A stretch of 32,597 nucleotides of DNA from Candidatus Egerieousia equi (GTDB lineage Bacteria; Bacteroidota; Bacteroidia; Bacteroidales; UBA932), in the NCBI GenBank assembly GCA_018065035.1, contig JAGHUC010000083.1:1-32597 (forward strand). Direction: 5' to 3'. This document shows, piece by piece, positions 11,769-31,759 of the stretch (its first letter is position 1; every line of letters begins with the position of its first letter). Position numbers and translations under genes: made by a program. The notes under the pieces are model-generated. The model made no database searches, had not been told where the DNA came from, and was given only the letters and a program-made list of their open reading frames with translations.

Positions 11769-13239
11769 AGAAACCATCTGTGCTAACGCTACAGCTCCAG
11801 GCGGTGCTATTGCCGTTATACGTGTCAGTGGAGCGGATGCTATTGACACTGTTTCCAGGATTTTCGTGCCTGCATCAAAGGAGAGCACTCCCCTAACCTC
11901 TGCCAATGGATACACAATGCATTACGGTTCAATTGGTACTCAGACAGAAACCATTGATGAAGTTCTGGTGTCAGTTTTCAGGGCTCCTCATTCGTATACC
12001 GGCGAAAACAGCATGGAGATCTCCTGTCACGGCTCCAACTACATAGTTCAGAGGATACTATCGCTCCTGGTAGAGAATGGATGCAGAATGGCGCAACCTG
12101 GAGAATTCACGCAAAGAGCCTTCATTAACGGGAAGATGGATCTTTCTCAGGCTGAGGCTGTTGCAGATTTGATTGCTTCTCAGACAGAAGCCGCGCACAG
12201 AATAGCGTTTAAGCAACTTAAAGGAGGTTTCAGTCAGGAATTGGCATTGATGCGCCAGGAATTGCTCCATATAGTATCGCTGATGGAACTTGAACTGGAT
12301 TTCAGCGAGGAGGAAGTAGAATTCGCGGACCGCAGCGAACTGCGACAGCTGCTGGACAAAGTTACGCAGCACATTGATAAGCTTATTTCCAGTTTCAATT
12401 TAGGTAACGCCATCAAAAACGGTGTACCAGTGGCAATTGTAGGAGCAACAAATGCAGGAAAGAGCACTTTGCTGAACACAATAATCGGTGAAAACAGAGC
12501 CATTGTTTCAGATATTGCAGGTACCACCCGCGATACCATTGAAGAGAATTTCAATATTGGCGGAGTGCTGTTCCGGTTCATTGATACTGCCGGACTGCGC
12601 CAAAGCAACGATTCCATTGAGAAGATAGGCATTGAACGAGCATACGAGAAACTGGCAGAAGCTACACTGGTTCTGGCGGTAATTGATCTCAGCTCCCCTG
12701 TTGACCTTATCTTAAGCAGCGCTGAAGATATCTTGAGCAAAGTGAATGCAAATCAGAAACTTATATTTCTACTCAACAAAACAGACAAGGCTGAGGATGC
12801 ATATATAAATCAGGTGGAAAGACGTTTGGCTGAACTGGTACAAACACTGGATTGCAATGCTGAATCGCTGAAGAAAACTGATAATATATTCCTTGAAACA
12901 GACTCTAAATTAACAGAGAAGAATTTCAAAAGCTTCAGAATATCGGCCAAAAACAAAACGGGCATACAGGAATTCATAAACCACGTTTCGGAAACGTTTC
13001 AAACGCTCAACGCATCGTCCGAGACCACACTCGTTTCAAACGTACGCCACCTCGAAGCACTCAAATCCGCTAACACCGCACTTTACCGTGTCCGCGAATC
13101 TCTTGACAGCTCCACCCCTACCGACCTCATTTCCCAGGACATACGCGAAGCCCTCTACCACCTCGGCTCCATCGTAGGTGAAATCTCCACCGACGAAATT
13201 CTCGGAAACATCTTCCGAAATTTCTGCATCGGTAAGTGA
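11758..13239 (+). CDS. mnmE: tRNA uridine-5-carboxymethylaminomethyl modification GTPase
   Basis: MnmE acts with MnmG to install the (carboxymethyl)aminomethyl group on wobble uridine 34 of tRNAs. Choosing the ATG at 11758 gives 493 residues beginning MSIEETICANATAPGGAI, the normal family start; earlier in-frame ATGs lie inside rlmD. The N-terminal folate-binding domain is followed by a GTPase inserted in a helical domain: G1 GATNAGKST (229-237), AGTTRDT (254-260), DTAG (276-279), NKTD (340-343) and SAK (396-398). The C-terminal FCIGK carries the essential Cys. The stretch between NKTD and SAK is about 50 residues, longer than the roughly 20 of E. coli MnmE. It is translationally coupled to rlmD. 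Confidence 0.96.
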   Translation: MSIEETICANATAPGGAIAVIRVSGADAIDTVSRIFVPASKESTPLTSANGYTMHYGSIGTQTETIDEVLVSVFRAPHSYTGENSMEISCHGSNYIVQRILSLLVENGCRMAQPGEFTQRAFINGKMDLSQAEAVADLIASQTEAAHRIAFKQLKGGFSQELALMRQELLHIVSLMELELDFSEEEVEFADRSELRQLLDKVTQHIDKLISSFNLGNAIKNGVPVAIVGATNAGKSTLLNTIIGENRAIVSDIAGTTRDTIEENFNIGGVLFRFIDTAGLRQSNDSIEKIGIERAYEKLAEATLVLAVIDLSSPVDLILSSAEDILSKVNANQKLIFLLNKTDKAEDAYINQVERRLAELVQTLDCNAESLKKTDNIFLETDSKLTEKNFKSFRISAKNKTGIQEFINHVSETFQTLNASSETTLVSNVRHLEALKSANTALYRVRESLDSSTPTDLISQDIREALYHLGSIVGEISTDEILGNIFRNFCIGK

Positions 13240-13311: not shown

Positions 13312-13355
13312 ACTTCCAATTTGGTACGTATTCCTACCATTTTGGAAGTTTTTTT
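13312..13355 (+). terminator. Rho-independent terminator after mnmE
   Basis: Arms 13312-13326 (ACTTCCAATTTGGTA) and 13335-13349 (TACCATTTTGGAAGT) pair over 15 positions with a small internal mismatch, an 8-base loop, and are followed by a run of seven T. It lies 72 bases after the mnmE stop and marks the end of the core transcription unit just before the mobile element genes. Confidence 0.75.
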
Positions 13356-13426
13356 ACGCCTTTTCTACTGCATATCTACTGCAGAGGTCTAAAAGCCGTC
13401 CGAACATCCCAAGGTTGTTGATACAC

Positions 13427-13466
13427 TGGGACACCATGGGACGTGACGGGACACAGTGGGACACAT
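13427..13466. repeat. Four tandem 10-bp GGGAC repeats (iteron-like operator)
   Basis: TGGGACACCA, TGGGACGTGA, CGGGACACAG and TGGGACACAT occupy 13427-13466 end to end, so the GGGAC cores at 13428, 13438, 13448 and 13458 are one helical turn apart. A fifth TGGGACA begins at 13480, overlapping the start codon of the next gene. A near -7 box, CACATTTG (13462-13469), overlaps the last unit, so a bound protein would block the promoter. Probable binding site for the neighbouring multi-HTH protein; this is inference. Confidence 0.75.
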
Positions 13467-13478
13467 TTGGCGAAATAA

Positions 13479-14456
13479 ATGGGACATCTATCCTACAAAA
13501 AGACGTGTGAATGGTGTGGCAAGGCCTACTATGCACAAAAGATCACCACAAACTATTGCAGCCATACATGTGCGAGCCGTGCCTATAAGGCACGAAAGCG
13601 TGCAGAAACCATGGCTAAGTTCGAAACCGAGAATGCTAGAGTACAGAACAAGGATCCGGCTGTTACTACCAAAGGACAGACCGTTTCAGAATTGGATGTG
13701 ATGACTCCACGAATAGCAGCTTCGTACCTTGGAATCGGGAAGACCACTCTATATAGATATATAGAAGGAGGGAAGATCAAGGTCCTTAAACTGTCCGGCA
13801 AGACTTTGATCAGGAGATCTGACCTGGATAGCATGTTCGTAGTCGGGGCCACTCCCCTTGCGGCTCCCAAGGCGATGCCGTCCAATGACGAAGTTGCCGT
13901 CAGCGAGAATGACTACTATACCACTCGCCAGATCTCAGAGATTCTTGGGATGTCGATGGCCGGAACGTGGGCGCTCCTTAAAAGGGAGAAGGTCAAGTCT
14001 ATCTCTGAGCGTGGCATGACCTATTATGAGAAGAAGCATATAGACAGGATCAAGGCTTTGAGAGAAACAGAAGGGCATTCGGAGATTACAGAGTGGTACT
14101 CAACTTCAGAGGTCATTCAGAAGTTCAATATGACTCAGGCTGCAGTCTATACGATGGCATTCGACTTCGGAATTCCTAAGAAGAAAGTCAAGAACCAGGT
14201 CTTCTATTCGAAGGCTCATGTGGATGCTGTCAAGAACAAGTCGAAATCCAACGAGGCTATTGTCGGCTCCGGTGACTACTATTCCGTGAAACAGATTATG
14301 GAGAAGTATCACATGACCCGTGACCGTGTCGATCACTACTTGAGATACTACAAGATACCTCGTATTAAAGTCGGGAAAATCATCATGATACCTTGCAAGG
14401 AGTTCGATGACCTGTTTGCAATTTCGCTGAAAAATTGCTTAAATACTAAAAGATAG
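13479..14456 (+). CDS. Zinc-ribbon protein with four tandem excisionase/MerR-like HTH domains (mobile element regulator)
   Basis: A 325-residue DNA-binding protein. It begins with a Cys4 zinc-binding motif (C10-x2-C13-x13-C27-x3-C31) followed by a basic segment. Then come four similar winged-HTH units at about 75-120, 146-191, 207-251 and 267-313; units 2 to 4 open with an aromatic-Y-[ST] start (YYTTRQI, WYSTSEV, YYSVKQI), and each runs HTH, wing, then an acidic helix. The first (MTPRIAASYLGIGKTTLYRY) is closest to excisionase HTHs. Genes of this type commonly lie just upstream of integrases of Bacteroidetes conjugative elements, as here. A role in directionality, integrase control or autoregulation is inferred. 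Its start codon overlaps the fifth GGGAC repeat. Confidence 0.8.
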   Translation: MGHLSYKKTCEWCGKAYYAQKITTNYCSHTCASRAYKARKRAETMAKFETENARVQNKDPAVTTKGQTVSELDVMTPRIAASYLGIGKTTLYRYIEGGKIKVLKLSGKTLIRRSDLDSMFVVGATPLAAPKAMPSNDEVAVSENDYYTTRQISEILGMSMAGTWALLKREKVKSISERGMTYYEKKHIDRIKALRETEGHSEITEWYSTSEVIQKFNMTQAAVYTMAFDFGIPKKKVKNQVFYSKAHVDAVKNKSKSNEAIVGSGDYYSVKQIMEKYHMTRDRVDHYLRYYKIPRIKVGKIIMIPCKEFDDLFAISLKNCLNTKR

Positions 14457-14523: not shown

Positions 14524-15645
14524 ATGATACATAAGGTATATATCAGGGAAAAGACAATGAGAAGCGGAAGGACCTACCTGTACCTTCAGTTCTACCCGGC
14601 GATCAAGAACAAGATAACTGGAAAGTCAGTTGAGTGGGAATCACTGCATCTTGAAGTATTCCCTGGAACGAGAGATAAGGAGAAGCGCCAGCAGGATAAG
14701 TTCAACCGTGATGTCGCCTACCAGATCTATATGAAGAGAGCCATGCAGATCGCTGCTGAAGACTATGATTTTGCAGATCCTTTCAGAAGAGAATCGGATG
14801 CGCTTGCTTACTTCAAAGAACTTGCTGAGTACAAGAACAAAATCAACTGCAAGTGGAATGTGGTCTATGGTTACTTTGAGAAGTTTACGAAGGGGTCGTG
14901 CAAGTTCGGCGAGATAGACGTATTCCTGGTGGAAAAATTCAGGGATTATCTGTTGACCACGACTGACACCAGACTTGGCGTGCGATTGAACAGGAACGCA
15001 GCATCAGCATACTTCGGATTATTCAAGACAATGCTCAGATGCGCCTATAAGAGGCATCTTCTAACTGAGAATCTGAGCGACCAGGTGGATGGTATCAAGA
15101 CTCTGAAGACACATAAAGAATTCCTTACGATAGAAGAGGTTAAAGCATTGTCACTCACCTATTGCGAGATTGACGTTTTGAAGCGTGCAGCGCTCTTCTC
15201 GTGCTTTACAGGACTTCGTATCAGCGACGTTATGAACTTGAAATGGGAAAACATCATCAAGAACCAGTTCGGAGGTTACAGTATAGAGCTCAATACTGTC
15301 AAGAACGGCAAGCTATGCGAGAATCCCCTCAGTCCTGAAGCTCTTGAATTCTGCGGAGAAAGAGGTGTTGGGCTGGTGTTCCCCGGACTTGAGAGATCGA
15401 TGCTATACAAGGAGATGCCGGAATGGATCAGGGATGCAGGAATTGACAAGCACATCACATTCCACTGTTTCAGGCACACGTACGCAACCTTGCAGATTGC
15501 TGCCGGAACAGACATCTACACCGTATCCAAGATGCTCACTCACTCTAACGTTGCTACGACCCAGATCTATGCAGAACTTGTGAATGAAAAGAAGATGGAA
15601 ACCATATCGAGAATATCACTGAAGGATGTAAACACCACACTATAA
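14524..15645 (+). CDS. int: Tyrosine recombinase (integrase) of the conjugative element
   Basis: Site-specific recombinase for integration and excision of the element. From the ATG at 14524 it has 373 residues: an N-terminal arm-binding region, a SAM-like core-binding domain (about 90-190) and a catalytic domain (about 198-365). The full catalytic set is visible: Arg232 in TGLRISD, Lys260 in TVKNG, His314 and Arg317 in HCFRHTYAT, His340 in LTHSN and nucleophile Tyr349 in QIYAEL. Nothing is truncated, so it should be active. Position between the multi-HTH gene and an excisionase-like gene is typical of Bacteroidetes elements. It faces away from mnmE; the attachment site core was not identified. 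Confidence 0.92.
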   Translation: MIHKVYIREKTMRSGRTYLYLQFYPAIKNKITGKSVEWESLHLEVFPGTRDKEKRQQDKFNRDVAYQIYMKRAMQIAAEDYDFADPFRRESDALAYFKELAEYKNKINCKWNVVYGYFEKFTKGSCKFGEIDVFLVEKFRDYLLTTTDTRLGVRLNRNAASAYFGLFKTMLRCAYKRHLLTENLSDQVDGIKTLKTHKEFLTIEEVKALSLTYCEIDVLKRAALFSCFTGLRISDVMNLKWENIIKNQFGGYSIELNTVKNGKLCENPLSPEALEFCGERGVGLVFPGLERSMLYKEMPEWIRDAGIDKHITFHCFRHTYATLQIAAGTDIYTVSKMLTHSNVATTQIYAELVNEKKMETISRISLKDVNTTL

Positions 15646-15650
15646 CGCTT

Positions 15651-16208
15651 ATGGATAAGTCACAGACAGACAAGATGATTACTATCCCGGAAAGCCATTA
15701 CAACGAGATAGTTCGAGGCTACTTCTCCCTTCAGGAGGAGAACAAGTCCCTCCATGAGGAAATTATGAGATACACCTACCCTAAGGAATCCAGCGACCTG
15801 GACTATATGAAGGGTATACGGCTGTATCTTATGGATACCCTCCTGGACTTCACGTCTGTCCGTGACATTGAGATTCTGTATGATGACATCTGCGTCTATG
15901 CTGATGAGTTCTCCACAGGGATAGACCCCAAAAGCTACAATCCGGTCTGGATCCCGAAGATTCTGAAAGGATATGACATATGCAGGATGTTCTGGGGCAT
16001 CAACAAGGCGATTGGAGCTACCGGGCATGATGCCGGGGTGTTTCTCAAGTGCGTTTTCCCTACTCTCTTCAAGAATTCGAATCCAACTTCCCTTGGGTCG
16101 AACCTCACGAAGTATGAGTCAAACATGGTCCTGACCAACGTGATGTTCGGCCGGGAACACCCAAGGGAATACTTCAGGAGACTATATCATGAAAAACAAA
16201 ACAGATAA
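15651..16208 (+). CDS. Uncharacterised mobile-element protein
   Basis: A 185-residue soluble protein of unknown function, starting six bases after the integrase stop and overlapping the following excisionase-like gene by 20 bases, so the three are one unit. There is a polar N-terminus with a short coiled-coil-like segment (about 24-42, LQEENKSLHEEIMRY), then mixed helical sequence with aromatic residues and the C-terminal REHPREYFRRLYHEK. No catalytic motif, signal peptide or membrane segment is visible. Tight linkage to int suggests an accessory role in recombination or its control. Confidence 0.65.
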   Translation: MDKSQTDKMITIPESHYNEIVRGYFSLQEENKSLHEEIMRYTYPKESSDLDYMKGIRLYLMDTLLDFTSVRDIEILYDDICVYADEFSTGIDPKSYNPVWIPKILKGYDICRMFWGINKAIGATGHDAGVFLKCVFPTLFKNSNPTSLGSNLTKYESNMVLTNVMFGREHPREYFRRLYHEKQNR

Positions 16209-16584
16209 GAATATGAAGAAGATCACTTTTGATGACATGCCGGATGCAATCAGCGGCATCATGGAGGAAATCGGAAACCTCAGAAAGGAGGTCACTGCTC
16301 TCAGTGAAACCTGCAACAGGATGGCTATGACAGAAACAAACGCGAGACTGGCAGAGCTCTACAACACAAAGCAGGTCGCATCGTATCTCAACGTAAGTGT
16401 CAATACCATCTACAAGATGGTCAATGAGGGACGCATCCCATATCTCAAGGCCGGGCACCATCTTCAGTTCTCCAGGGATGAGATCAAAGCCTGGCTCAAG
16501 GAGCGAAGCCATCTGGTAGTTGCGAAAACAAAGGAGGATGTAAAACAAGCTGCTGCAAAATACCGAAAACCAATCGGACTATAA
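16189..16584 (+). CDS. Excisionase-family HTH protein
   Basis: A small DNA-binding protein of 131 residues, probably the recombination directionality factor. A coiled-coil-like N-terminal stretch (about 20-45) leads to a winged HTH of the excisionase/MerR type (58-105): YNTKQVASYLNVSVNTIYKMV, then the wing with GRIPYLKAGHHLQFSRDEIKAWL. The tail is basic. Translation may start at 16189 or at the internal ATG at 16213; the former overlaps the upstream gene. It converges on traN. Confidence 0.8.
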   Translation: MKNKTDKNMKKITFDDMPDAISGIMEEIGNLRKEVTALSETCNRMAMTETNARLAELYNTKQVASYLNVSVNTIYKMVNEGRIPYLKAGHHLQFSRDEIKAWLKERSHLVVAKTKEDVKQAAAKYRKPIGL

Positions 16585-31208: not shown

Positions 31209-31511
31209 CTATTTGTCGTCCTTCCGCAGTTTCTCCTCGTACTTCTTGTCATAGGCTTCGCCTCTCGGGACGAGGTACTTGAAGAACACGCAGTCATCGA
31301 TGATCTGTATGTGGAAGATGAAGAACGCACGGAGGCTTCCGATGCGGATACGGTACACGTTGTCATAGCCGACCAGCTTCTTGCAGTCGGTAATCTCATC
31401 CAGGCATGACGCATTCTTGACTTCAAGAATCGTGTTCCTGACGGAATTCAATGTCTTGCCCGACAGCTTGCGGACTGATTTCTCAAAATCCTTCGAGTAC
31501 TTCGTCTTCAT
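31209..31511 (-). CDS. RelE/ParE-superfamily toxin
   Basis: A protein of 100 residues with the RelE/ParE fold pattern: MKTKYSKDFEKSVRKLSGKTL, an LDEITDCKKLVGYDNVYRIRIG strand block, and ...RAFFIFHIQ...VFFKYLVPRGEAYDKK. The pattern G-Y-x-N-x-Y-R-I-R-x-G-x-x-R is a good family match; the toxin is probably an mRNA endonuclease or gyrase inhibitor, which I cannot decide. The start overlaps the antitoxin stop by four bases, with the antitoxin first, the usual type II order. Confidence 0.85.
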   Translation of the reverse strand: MKTKYSKDFEKSVRKLSGKTLNSVRNTILEVKNASCLDEITDCKKLVGYDNVYRIRIGSLRAFFIFHIQIIDDCVFFKYLVPRGEAYDKKYEEKLRKDDK

Positions 31512-31759
31512 AATCCCAGCCAGTTCTCAAAGTCCTTGGTCTCTTCTTCGGAAAGCTCAACGTCTCCGTCAGGACGGACATTGCAAAGATACTGGTAGGT
31601 TGCCGCCTCGTTCATATCCTCCACCTCTTTTTCGAGGAGTGCTTCGATATAGCTCTTGAGGTTTGTGCCGGATGCGGCCGCCTTGATGGAAAGGAAGCGA
31701 TATACATCTTCTCGGATGTCTATGTTCTTTCTTTTTGTCTGAACTGCTGCAGTATTCAT
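31508..31759 (-). CDS. RHH-type antitoxin
   Basis: An 83-residue partner of the toxin. The N-terminal half (about 11-47: KNIDIREDVYRFLSIKAAAS then GTNLKSYIEALLEKEV) has the beta-alpha-alpha ribbon-helix-helix pattern that binds operator DNA as a dimer; the acidic C-terminal half (DVELSEEETKDFENWLGL) would wrap the toxin. It is first in the operon, with a -7 box 24 bases upstream. The pair should autorepress its own promoter. Confidence 0.8.
   Translation of the reverse strand: MNTAAVQTKRKNIDIREDVYRFLSIKAAASGTNLKSYIEALLEKEVEDMNEAATYQYLCNVRPDGDVELSEEETKDFENWLGL

Follow-up and report, generated by a model that had tools for sequence, protein, structure and literature searches.

The question raised by this locus is which protein reads a short array of direct repeats lying just before the gene of a multi-domain DNA-binding protein, and what the reading is for. 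The window, by which we mean the whole stretch of 32,597 nucleotides of Candidatus Egerieousia equi that was analysed, carries four GGGAC copies at 13428, 13438, 13448 and 13458, spaced exactly 10 bp as an earlier note on this DNA had seen, and that note proposed that one molecule of the neighbouring protein, with its four helix-turn-helix (HTH) units, reads them with one HTH per repeat. We think, with a probability of roughly three in four, that the answer is another: the array would be a private operator on the left att arm of an integrative element sitting at the 3' end of mnmE, where several copies of the protein would bind with cooperativity, each occupying one 10-bp repeat and contacting it with the recognition helix of its first HTH unit (HTH1), shaping recombination and probably also the expression of the operon.

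Table 1. Features at the left end of the integrated element, in window coordinates
Feature	Positions	Strand	Basis
attL core TGCATCGGTAAGTGA, the last mnmE codons, inferred integration site	13225..13239	+	second copy elsewhere in the assembly; core in homologous loci
Inverted repeat followed by a T run, terminator-like	13312..13349	+	15-nt arms, 87% complementary
Pair of TCTACTGC copies at 11-bp spacing, candidate arm sites of the integrase	13364..13382	+	sequence; function inferred
Operator array, four TGGGAC units (the third CGGGAC), 10-bp spacing	13427..13462	+	sequence; homologous arrays
GGCGAAAT motif beside the array	13469..13476	+	often adjoins the array in relatives
TnpA-like protein, 325 aa	13479..14456	+	Pfam, NCBIfam, AlphaFold2, profile and fold searches; homology to Tn4555 TnpA
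Fifth GGGAC, overlapping the start codon (ATG 13479)	13481..13485	+	off-register; 1 of 50 four-HTH loci
Codons for Thr89 to Arg93 (89 and 93 being the two HTH1 specificity positions)	13743..13757	+	covariation
Tyrosine recombinase (integrase)	14527..15645	+	Phage_integrase 1e-18, Phage_int_SAM_5 8.2e-14 (ORF taken from 14485)
Single-HTH_17 protein, Xis-like, separate gene	16189..16584	+	HTH_17 8.7e-16; TIGR01764 (excise) 1.2e-14

The TnpA-like protein consists of a zinc ribbon (residues 6-31), a long helix (29-56) and four winged HTH units. Both the ribbon and the four units, which had been recognised from the translation, are borne out: Cys10, 13, 27 and 31 do not vary in either of two alignments, of 26 and 39 sequences, and AlphaFold2 places winged HTHs at about 77-121, 146-197, 206-263 and 267-322, in a model built from 39 sequences whose mean pLDDT of 78.4 and pTM of 0.28 make the domains usable and their mutual arrangement not. 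Pfam finds HTH_17 in three stretches of the protein. HTH1, with its recognition helix at residues 88-96 of the model, falls in the excisionase group (HTH_17; TIGR01764 at 35.8 bits, cut-off 28.8), and a profile of the N-terminal part with HTH1 matches the solved Pukovnik Xis (4j2n, E 4.6e-8). Foldseek with single domains returns BldC-DNA, Pukovnik Xis and RdfS with high probability but E values of 0.045 or more, the best BldC chains superposing at an rmsd of 1.2-1.5 A. The whole-chain fold search put UFL1 complexes on ribosomes at the top; these matches are misleading and were set aside, the single-domain matches being used.

The element that carries this gene begins after mnmE, which runs to 13239 in the window. 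The segment 13219-13239 recurs, with 20 of 21 bases identical, on another contig of the assembly (L002:775-795), and from its sequence this second copy is probably the attR of the same element. Of the homologous loci, 138 could be tested for a core of the form TG[CT]AT[CT]GG (the remaining 3 of 141 are too short), and 111 of the 138, from all classes of HTH number, have one at 120-420 bp before the first Cys codon; 12 of the 28 two-HTH loci are without it, and these are mostly also without a good array. The 3' end of trmE (mnmE) is listed in a table of PMC5704250 as the known insertion site of SGI1. After the array the order of genes is the 325-aa protein, the integrase, a 185-aa ORF and the single-HTH_17 protein, and genes further downstream in the element match TraM, TraG and DUF4138, the match to TraJ reaching only E 0.019 (Pfam). 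The 185-aa ORF (15651-16208, between the integrase and the Xis-like gene) has no match in Pfam, NCBIfam or PHROG, and its similarity to TnpC, with a best E of 0.038, does not convince us.

Some smaller observations belong to the same stretch. Pairs of repeats 11 bp apart were seen by eye between core and array in several of 17 related left ends, reading TCTACTGC in the window and TTTGTACC or TTTGTTGC in other loci, and on their sequence they are candidate arm sites of the integrase. The GGCGAAAT/GGAGAAAT motif follows the array in 29 of 50 four-HTH loci, and among 33 one-HTH loci it stands before the array in 6 and after it in 7, and is absent from 20. To the right of the probable attR (L002 1069-2294) there are, as labelled by eye, an HTH protein and a HipA-like ORF; in the window, two small adjoining ORFs on the minus strand at 31209-31759 resemble a RelE-type toxin and its antitoxin, again by eye.

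A first scan of genome contigs with the single window protein as query gave no relative. Within the order, 80 of 393 genomes have a relative (E up to 1e-3), and within the class 55 of 395 (1e-8); at 1e-20, relatives occur in two families (66 of 198 and 3 of 5 genomes) and in two other orders (42 of 346 and 1 of 5). The loci that we compared are part of these matches (L010 to L197): 185 have the N-terminal domain and 141 are non-redundant, and an integrase ORF was located downstream in 116 of the 141. Two contigs, G899:C2 (L158-L161) and G866:C7 (L163-L166), hold four elements each in the same orientation, every one starting at an mnmE-type core, with repeat words that mostly differ.

The check proposed with the repeats, that homologues should have a 10-bp array upstream, came out clearly: over the 160 bp upstream, the period that scores best is 10 bp in 126 of the 141 non-redundant loci, whereas single shuffles give this in 13 of 141. 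When loci are classed by HTH number, which was assigned by length and may be too low for proteins at contig ends (8 flagged) or cut by a stop, none of 60 shuffles attains the observed 10-bp score in 37 of 41 loci with one HTH, 16 of 28 with two, 12 of 12 with three and 53 of 59 with four, nor in the single longer locus. An array caller, which gave a bonus to units ending in AC, finds arrays in 107 of 141 real upstreams and in 2 of 423 shuffled ones (90 of the 107 real arrays and 0 of the 2 shuffled calls end in AC; the 107 are counted at a threshold of 6.3, close to that used for repeat numbers). In the window the four-unit pattern has one exact match, and none in 100 dinucleotide shuffles even at 3 mismatches, and the three-unit pattern is exact only at this array in the whole 1.92-Mb, 150-contig assembly. 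The fifth copy that had been counted with the array does overlap the ATG, but it lies 23 bp past copy 4, out of the 10-bp register, and among the 50 four-HTH loci with a called array the window is the only one that has its own word at the start codon; to judge from this comparison, the fifth copy is probably a coincidence.

What the array serves may be approached from its position. In 41 of 46 four-HTH loci, 201-206 bp separate the core from the first unit (SD over the 46, 3.0 bp), whereas the distance between array and ATG has an SD of 13.4 bp; the two values are 3.2 and 10.7 in six four-HTH loci whose core-to-array DNA is less than 65% identical, 7.1 and 18.8 in two-HTH loci (n=9), and 7.2 and 23.0 in three-HTH loci (n=9), while in one-HTH loci (n=27) they are 13.1 and 14.1 and the contrast is lost. 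A four-HTH spacing that is tighter to the core than to the ATG points, we think, at least as much to a role in recombination as to one in expression. The rival that survives best is that the array is purely an autoregulatory operator, through which the protein would repress or activate its own promoter with no part in recombination. It has in its favour that the median gap from the end of the array to the ATG is 34 bp in 50 four-HTH loci and 5 bp in 32 one-HTH loci, and that 19 of 32 one-HTH loci, against 2.5 expected from base-shuffled sequence, have a Bacteroidota-type promoter pattern within the upstream 320 bp, its -7 box lying mostly about 50-80 bp before the array, so that a bound array would be a roadblock. 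The same pattern is not enriched in four-HTH loci (3 of 50 against 1.8 expected), and it is to the att core, not to the ATG, that their arrays keep a tight distance; we therefore consider autoregulation alone unlikely. Autoregulation as such, which the earlier note had also suggested, is plausible from the position of the array, and an array placed so close ahead of the start codon would probably also control the tnpA-like/int operon.

No comparable array was seen in 12 right ends, whose own-word scores of 13-16 out of 24 are within the range of 30 shuffles for 11 of them. The window's probable right end scores 15 out of 24, on the other strand, against a maximum of 14 in 30 shuffles, at best a weak trace; in the case of the remaining 11 right ends, the stretch left of the next core was assumed to belong to the preceding element. 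On these 12 scores we reject an array at both ends of the element.

The identity of the reader may be approached from the diversity of the repeats. Each unit is made of four variable bases followed by AC, and the words include TGGGAC, TGGTAC, TGGAAC, TGAGAC, TGATAC, TGACAC and TGGCAC, and further AGCTAC, TTGCAC, TTAGAC, ATACAC, TTTTAC, GTTGAC and ACGGAC; there are 32 distinct words among the 88 well-called arrays of the 141 loci (53 were dropped for an array score below 6.3, a unit not ending in AC or an incomplete HTH1). When all aligned N-terminal columns of these 88 loci are ranked by APC-corrected mutual information, residue 93 comes first for base 2 and residue 89 for base 4 (with residue 96 almost level), and both 89 and 93 lie inside the modelled HTH1 recognition helix; bases 1 and 3 have as their top columns residues 21 and 78, outside the helix, and no clear partner within it. 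At residue 93, Arg goes with G at base 2 in 44 of 47 loci, Lys with T in 15 of 16, Asn with T in 8 of 10, Gly with T in 6 of 6 and Asp with C in 4 of 4. At residue 89, Gln goes with G at base 4 in 15 of 16, Arg with C in 14 of 15, Met with T in 11 of 11, Ala with G in 8 of 8 and Pro with T in 7 of 7, Thr (G 5, A 3, T 3) and Trp being mixed. The window itself, with Thr89 and Arg93, fits the rule at base 2, and its base 4 is unpredicted by Thr.

When kinship is taken into account, the relation is clearer for one position than for the other. Of the 16 disjoint closest pairs, 15 are concordant for residue 89 and base 4 (p 0.0014), whereas residue 93 and base 2 changed jointly in 4 and stayed jointly in 7 (p 0.09), the other 5 being changes of residue 93 among non-Arg residues that kept T at base 2. 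Among hold-out loci, whose N-terminus is at most 90% identical to any earlier one as judged by ungapped comparison (16 of 82 and 18 of 29 loci were kept, of which 2 and 7 are without a callable array), base 4 was predicted rightly in 5 of 7 and 6 of 7, hence 11 of 14, and base 2 in 14 of 14 and 8 of 11, hence 22 of 25, the latter being the weaker test because a constant guess of G scores 19 of 25. Mantel tests on 33 four-HTH loci relate word distance to the HTH1 helix with r 0.51, and the rest of HTH1 adds some correlation beyond the helix (r 0.22). Conditioned on the helix, the values for the zinc ribbon, for HTH2-4 and for the three regions of the integrase fall between -0.13 and 0.00; without this conditioning they reach r 0.05-0.13, with p from 0.010 to 0.057 in five of the seven regions and 0.146 for HTH3, the integrase and the zinc ribbon showing a small correlation with the word (r 0.09-0.13, p 0.010-0.044). 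On these comparisons, then, the integrase and HTH2-4 do not explain the word, and the covariation of the HTH1 helix with it supports the earlier idea that the neighbouring protein reads the array.

The same conclusion is suggested by elements that are close relatives. Taking pairs of loci whose integrases are at least 85% identical in the N-terminus and at least 80% in the catalytic part gives 36 pairs, which overlap; in the 28 with different words the mean identity is 44% in HTH1, 82-86% in HTH2-4 and 97% in the integrase N-terminus, and in the 8 with the same word HTH1 is on average 82% identical. When the DNA of L171/L174, L177/L182 and L017/L020 is aligned, the stretch from core to array is 80-100% identical per 40 columns, the array, zinc ribbon and HTH1 drop to 28-82% over about 480-560 columns, and HTH2-4 and the integrase return to mostly 80-100%; L011/L023 is a similar mosaic, with a less regular left part, which diverges again at its far end. 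In all 4 aligned pairs identity is lost over the array-to-HTH1 stretch and regained at HTH2, and since the drop spans the array through HTH1, array and reader move together: as read from these alignments, they change as one cassette in closely related elements.

Could the diversity of words mean exclusion, such that elements with the same word cannot coexist? The six elements with six words in G866 would agree with this; co-resident pairs nevertheless share their word in 8 of 44 cases against 4.25 expected, so there is no depletion, and the same-word co-residents are partly near-identical copies, as in G899 and G826, the G899 assembly holding three same-word copies, which makes us regard exclusion or incompatibility as improbable. 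Still less can be said for taking the repeats as arm-binding sites of the integrase. They do lie on the att arm, and lambda-type systems have phased arm sites, but the integrases of L017, L018 and L020 have identical N-terminal domains beside three different words, no residual correlation of the word with the three integrase regions is left after the HTH1 helix, and a comparable array is absent from the 12 right ends; we give this reading very little credence.

The proposal of one molecule reading the array with one HTH per repeat fares as badly. Four-HTH loci taken by themselves would fit it, with 4, 5 and 6 repeats in 47, 2 and 1 of the 50 loci (of 59) that have a callable array, but beside one-HTH proteins there are 4, 5, 6 and 7 repeats in 11, 13, 6 and 3 loci (33 of 41 callable), beside two-HTH proteins 4, 5 and 6 in 5, 7 and 1, beside three-HTH proteins 4 or 5 in 7 and 3, and the single longer locus has 5, so that counting HTH units against repeats yields no one-to-one match. 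Moreover, in the close-integrase pairs changes of word track HTH1 while HTH2-4 stay alike, and in the window the four HTHs have differing recognition helices while the four repeats share one common word. On these counts and sequences the one-to-one reading is excluded as a rule, and we see next to no chance of it.

We return to the reading that we prefer, of several protomers bound through HTH1, and compare it with known systems. The window protein is, by sequence, a distant relative of Tn4555 TnpA (tblastn E 3e-20, 25% identity over 90% of the query), and of the 12 plasmid records with relatives two are annotated as Tn4555 TnpA. Like the window protein, the latter is a homologous multi-HTH protein, encoded upstream of a tyrosine integrase with an excisionase-family gene further on (the order in the Tn4555-type region being tnpA, integrase, tnpC, excisionase). 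Tn4555-type left ends also carry 10-bp arrays, but two of them, of the GTTGAC type, as found with Q/K helices; both are inside the element because the flanks diverge only further left. In one such left end (L278 3823-3938) we noted two four-unit 10-bp arrays with starts 79 bp apart. Unlike the window's element, Tn4555 is not at mnmE, and its TnpC has no convincing match to the 185-aa ORF of the window. TnpA was reportedly described in 1999 as the targeting protein of this Bacteroides mobilizable transposon. Deletion of tnpA is stated, in a passage of PMC5704250, to make Tn4555 insertion essentially random, and the literature passages on Tn4555 that we drew upon mention no TnpA-bound array.

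Apl of phage 186, lambda Xis and related excisionases are described, in passages of PMC7498355, as acting at att on direct repeats of some 6 bp that are set at intervals of one helical turn, presumably with one monomer on each repeat, cooperatively and with bending; the same passages credit Apl with repression of promoters and Apl/Xis-type excisionases with relaxed specificity. The window system is like these in its excisionase-group winged HTH and in its direct repeats one helical turn apart on the att arm, and unlike these small proteins in its zinc ribbon, up to four winged HTHs, many words and residue-to-base relation. RdfS of ICEMlSymR7A, an HTH_17 excisionase, forms head-to-tail oligomers and binds attP, and according to the part of that report used here its authors found no consensus motif (PMC11963761), whereas the window system has an explicit one. 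BldC of Streptomyces likewise forms head-to-tail winged-HTH oligomers on direct repeats, as stated in part of PMC5859096; it is a stand-alone domain, a developmental regulator with 9-bp repeats, and the 10-bp period and extra domains of the window system set it outside the BldC family. The best-ranked matches in the open-licence literature include no account of such arrays beside TnpA-like proteins, nor of a code relating words to readers, and as far as that literature goes the diversity of words, the residue-to-base relation and the exchange of cassettes are new.

The mechanism that we propose is thus one in which the TnpA-like protein would occupy its direct repeats in the manner of Xis, Apl and BldC proteins; the filament so formed would bend the att arm in the part that lies between integrase sites and gene, and would thereby aid integration, the choice of target or excision. 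For excision, however, such a role is not needed, because the window has a separate Xis-like gene. HTH2-4 would be a conserved accessory module with another partner, either DNA or the integrase; that they read mnmE is not supported, because mnmE is also the site of 34 of the 41 one-HTH members, a count that takes in those truncated by a contig end. Residues 89 and 93 of HTH1 would largely determine the word of each element, and a switch of word would come about by exchange of the array, zinc ribbon and HTH1 as a cassette.

In more general terms, we lean towards seeing here a private-address system, in which each element may carry on its att arm its own 6-bp word, repeated once per helical turn, together with the matching reader. 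Swaps of a roughly 500-bp array-plus-HTH1 cassette between close elements would then diversify the words, and the residue-to-base rules would amount to a natural recognition code for winged helices of the Xis/BldC type. With 32 words and their readers alongside in a large Bacteroidota family, the code by which this class of proteins recognises sequence can be put to a direct test. The finding offers a molecular handle on Tn4555 TnpA, in that it predicts the place where this protein would bind, and it suggests that specificity modules are swapped among the mobile elements of gut bacteria.
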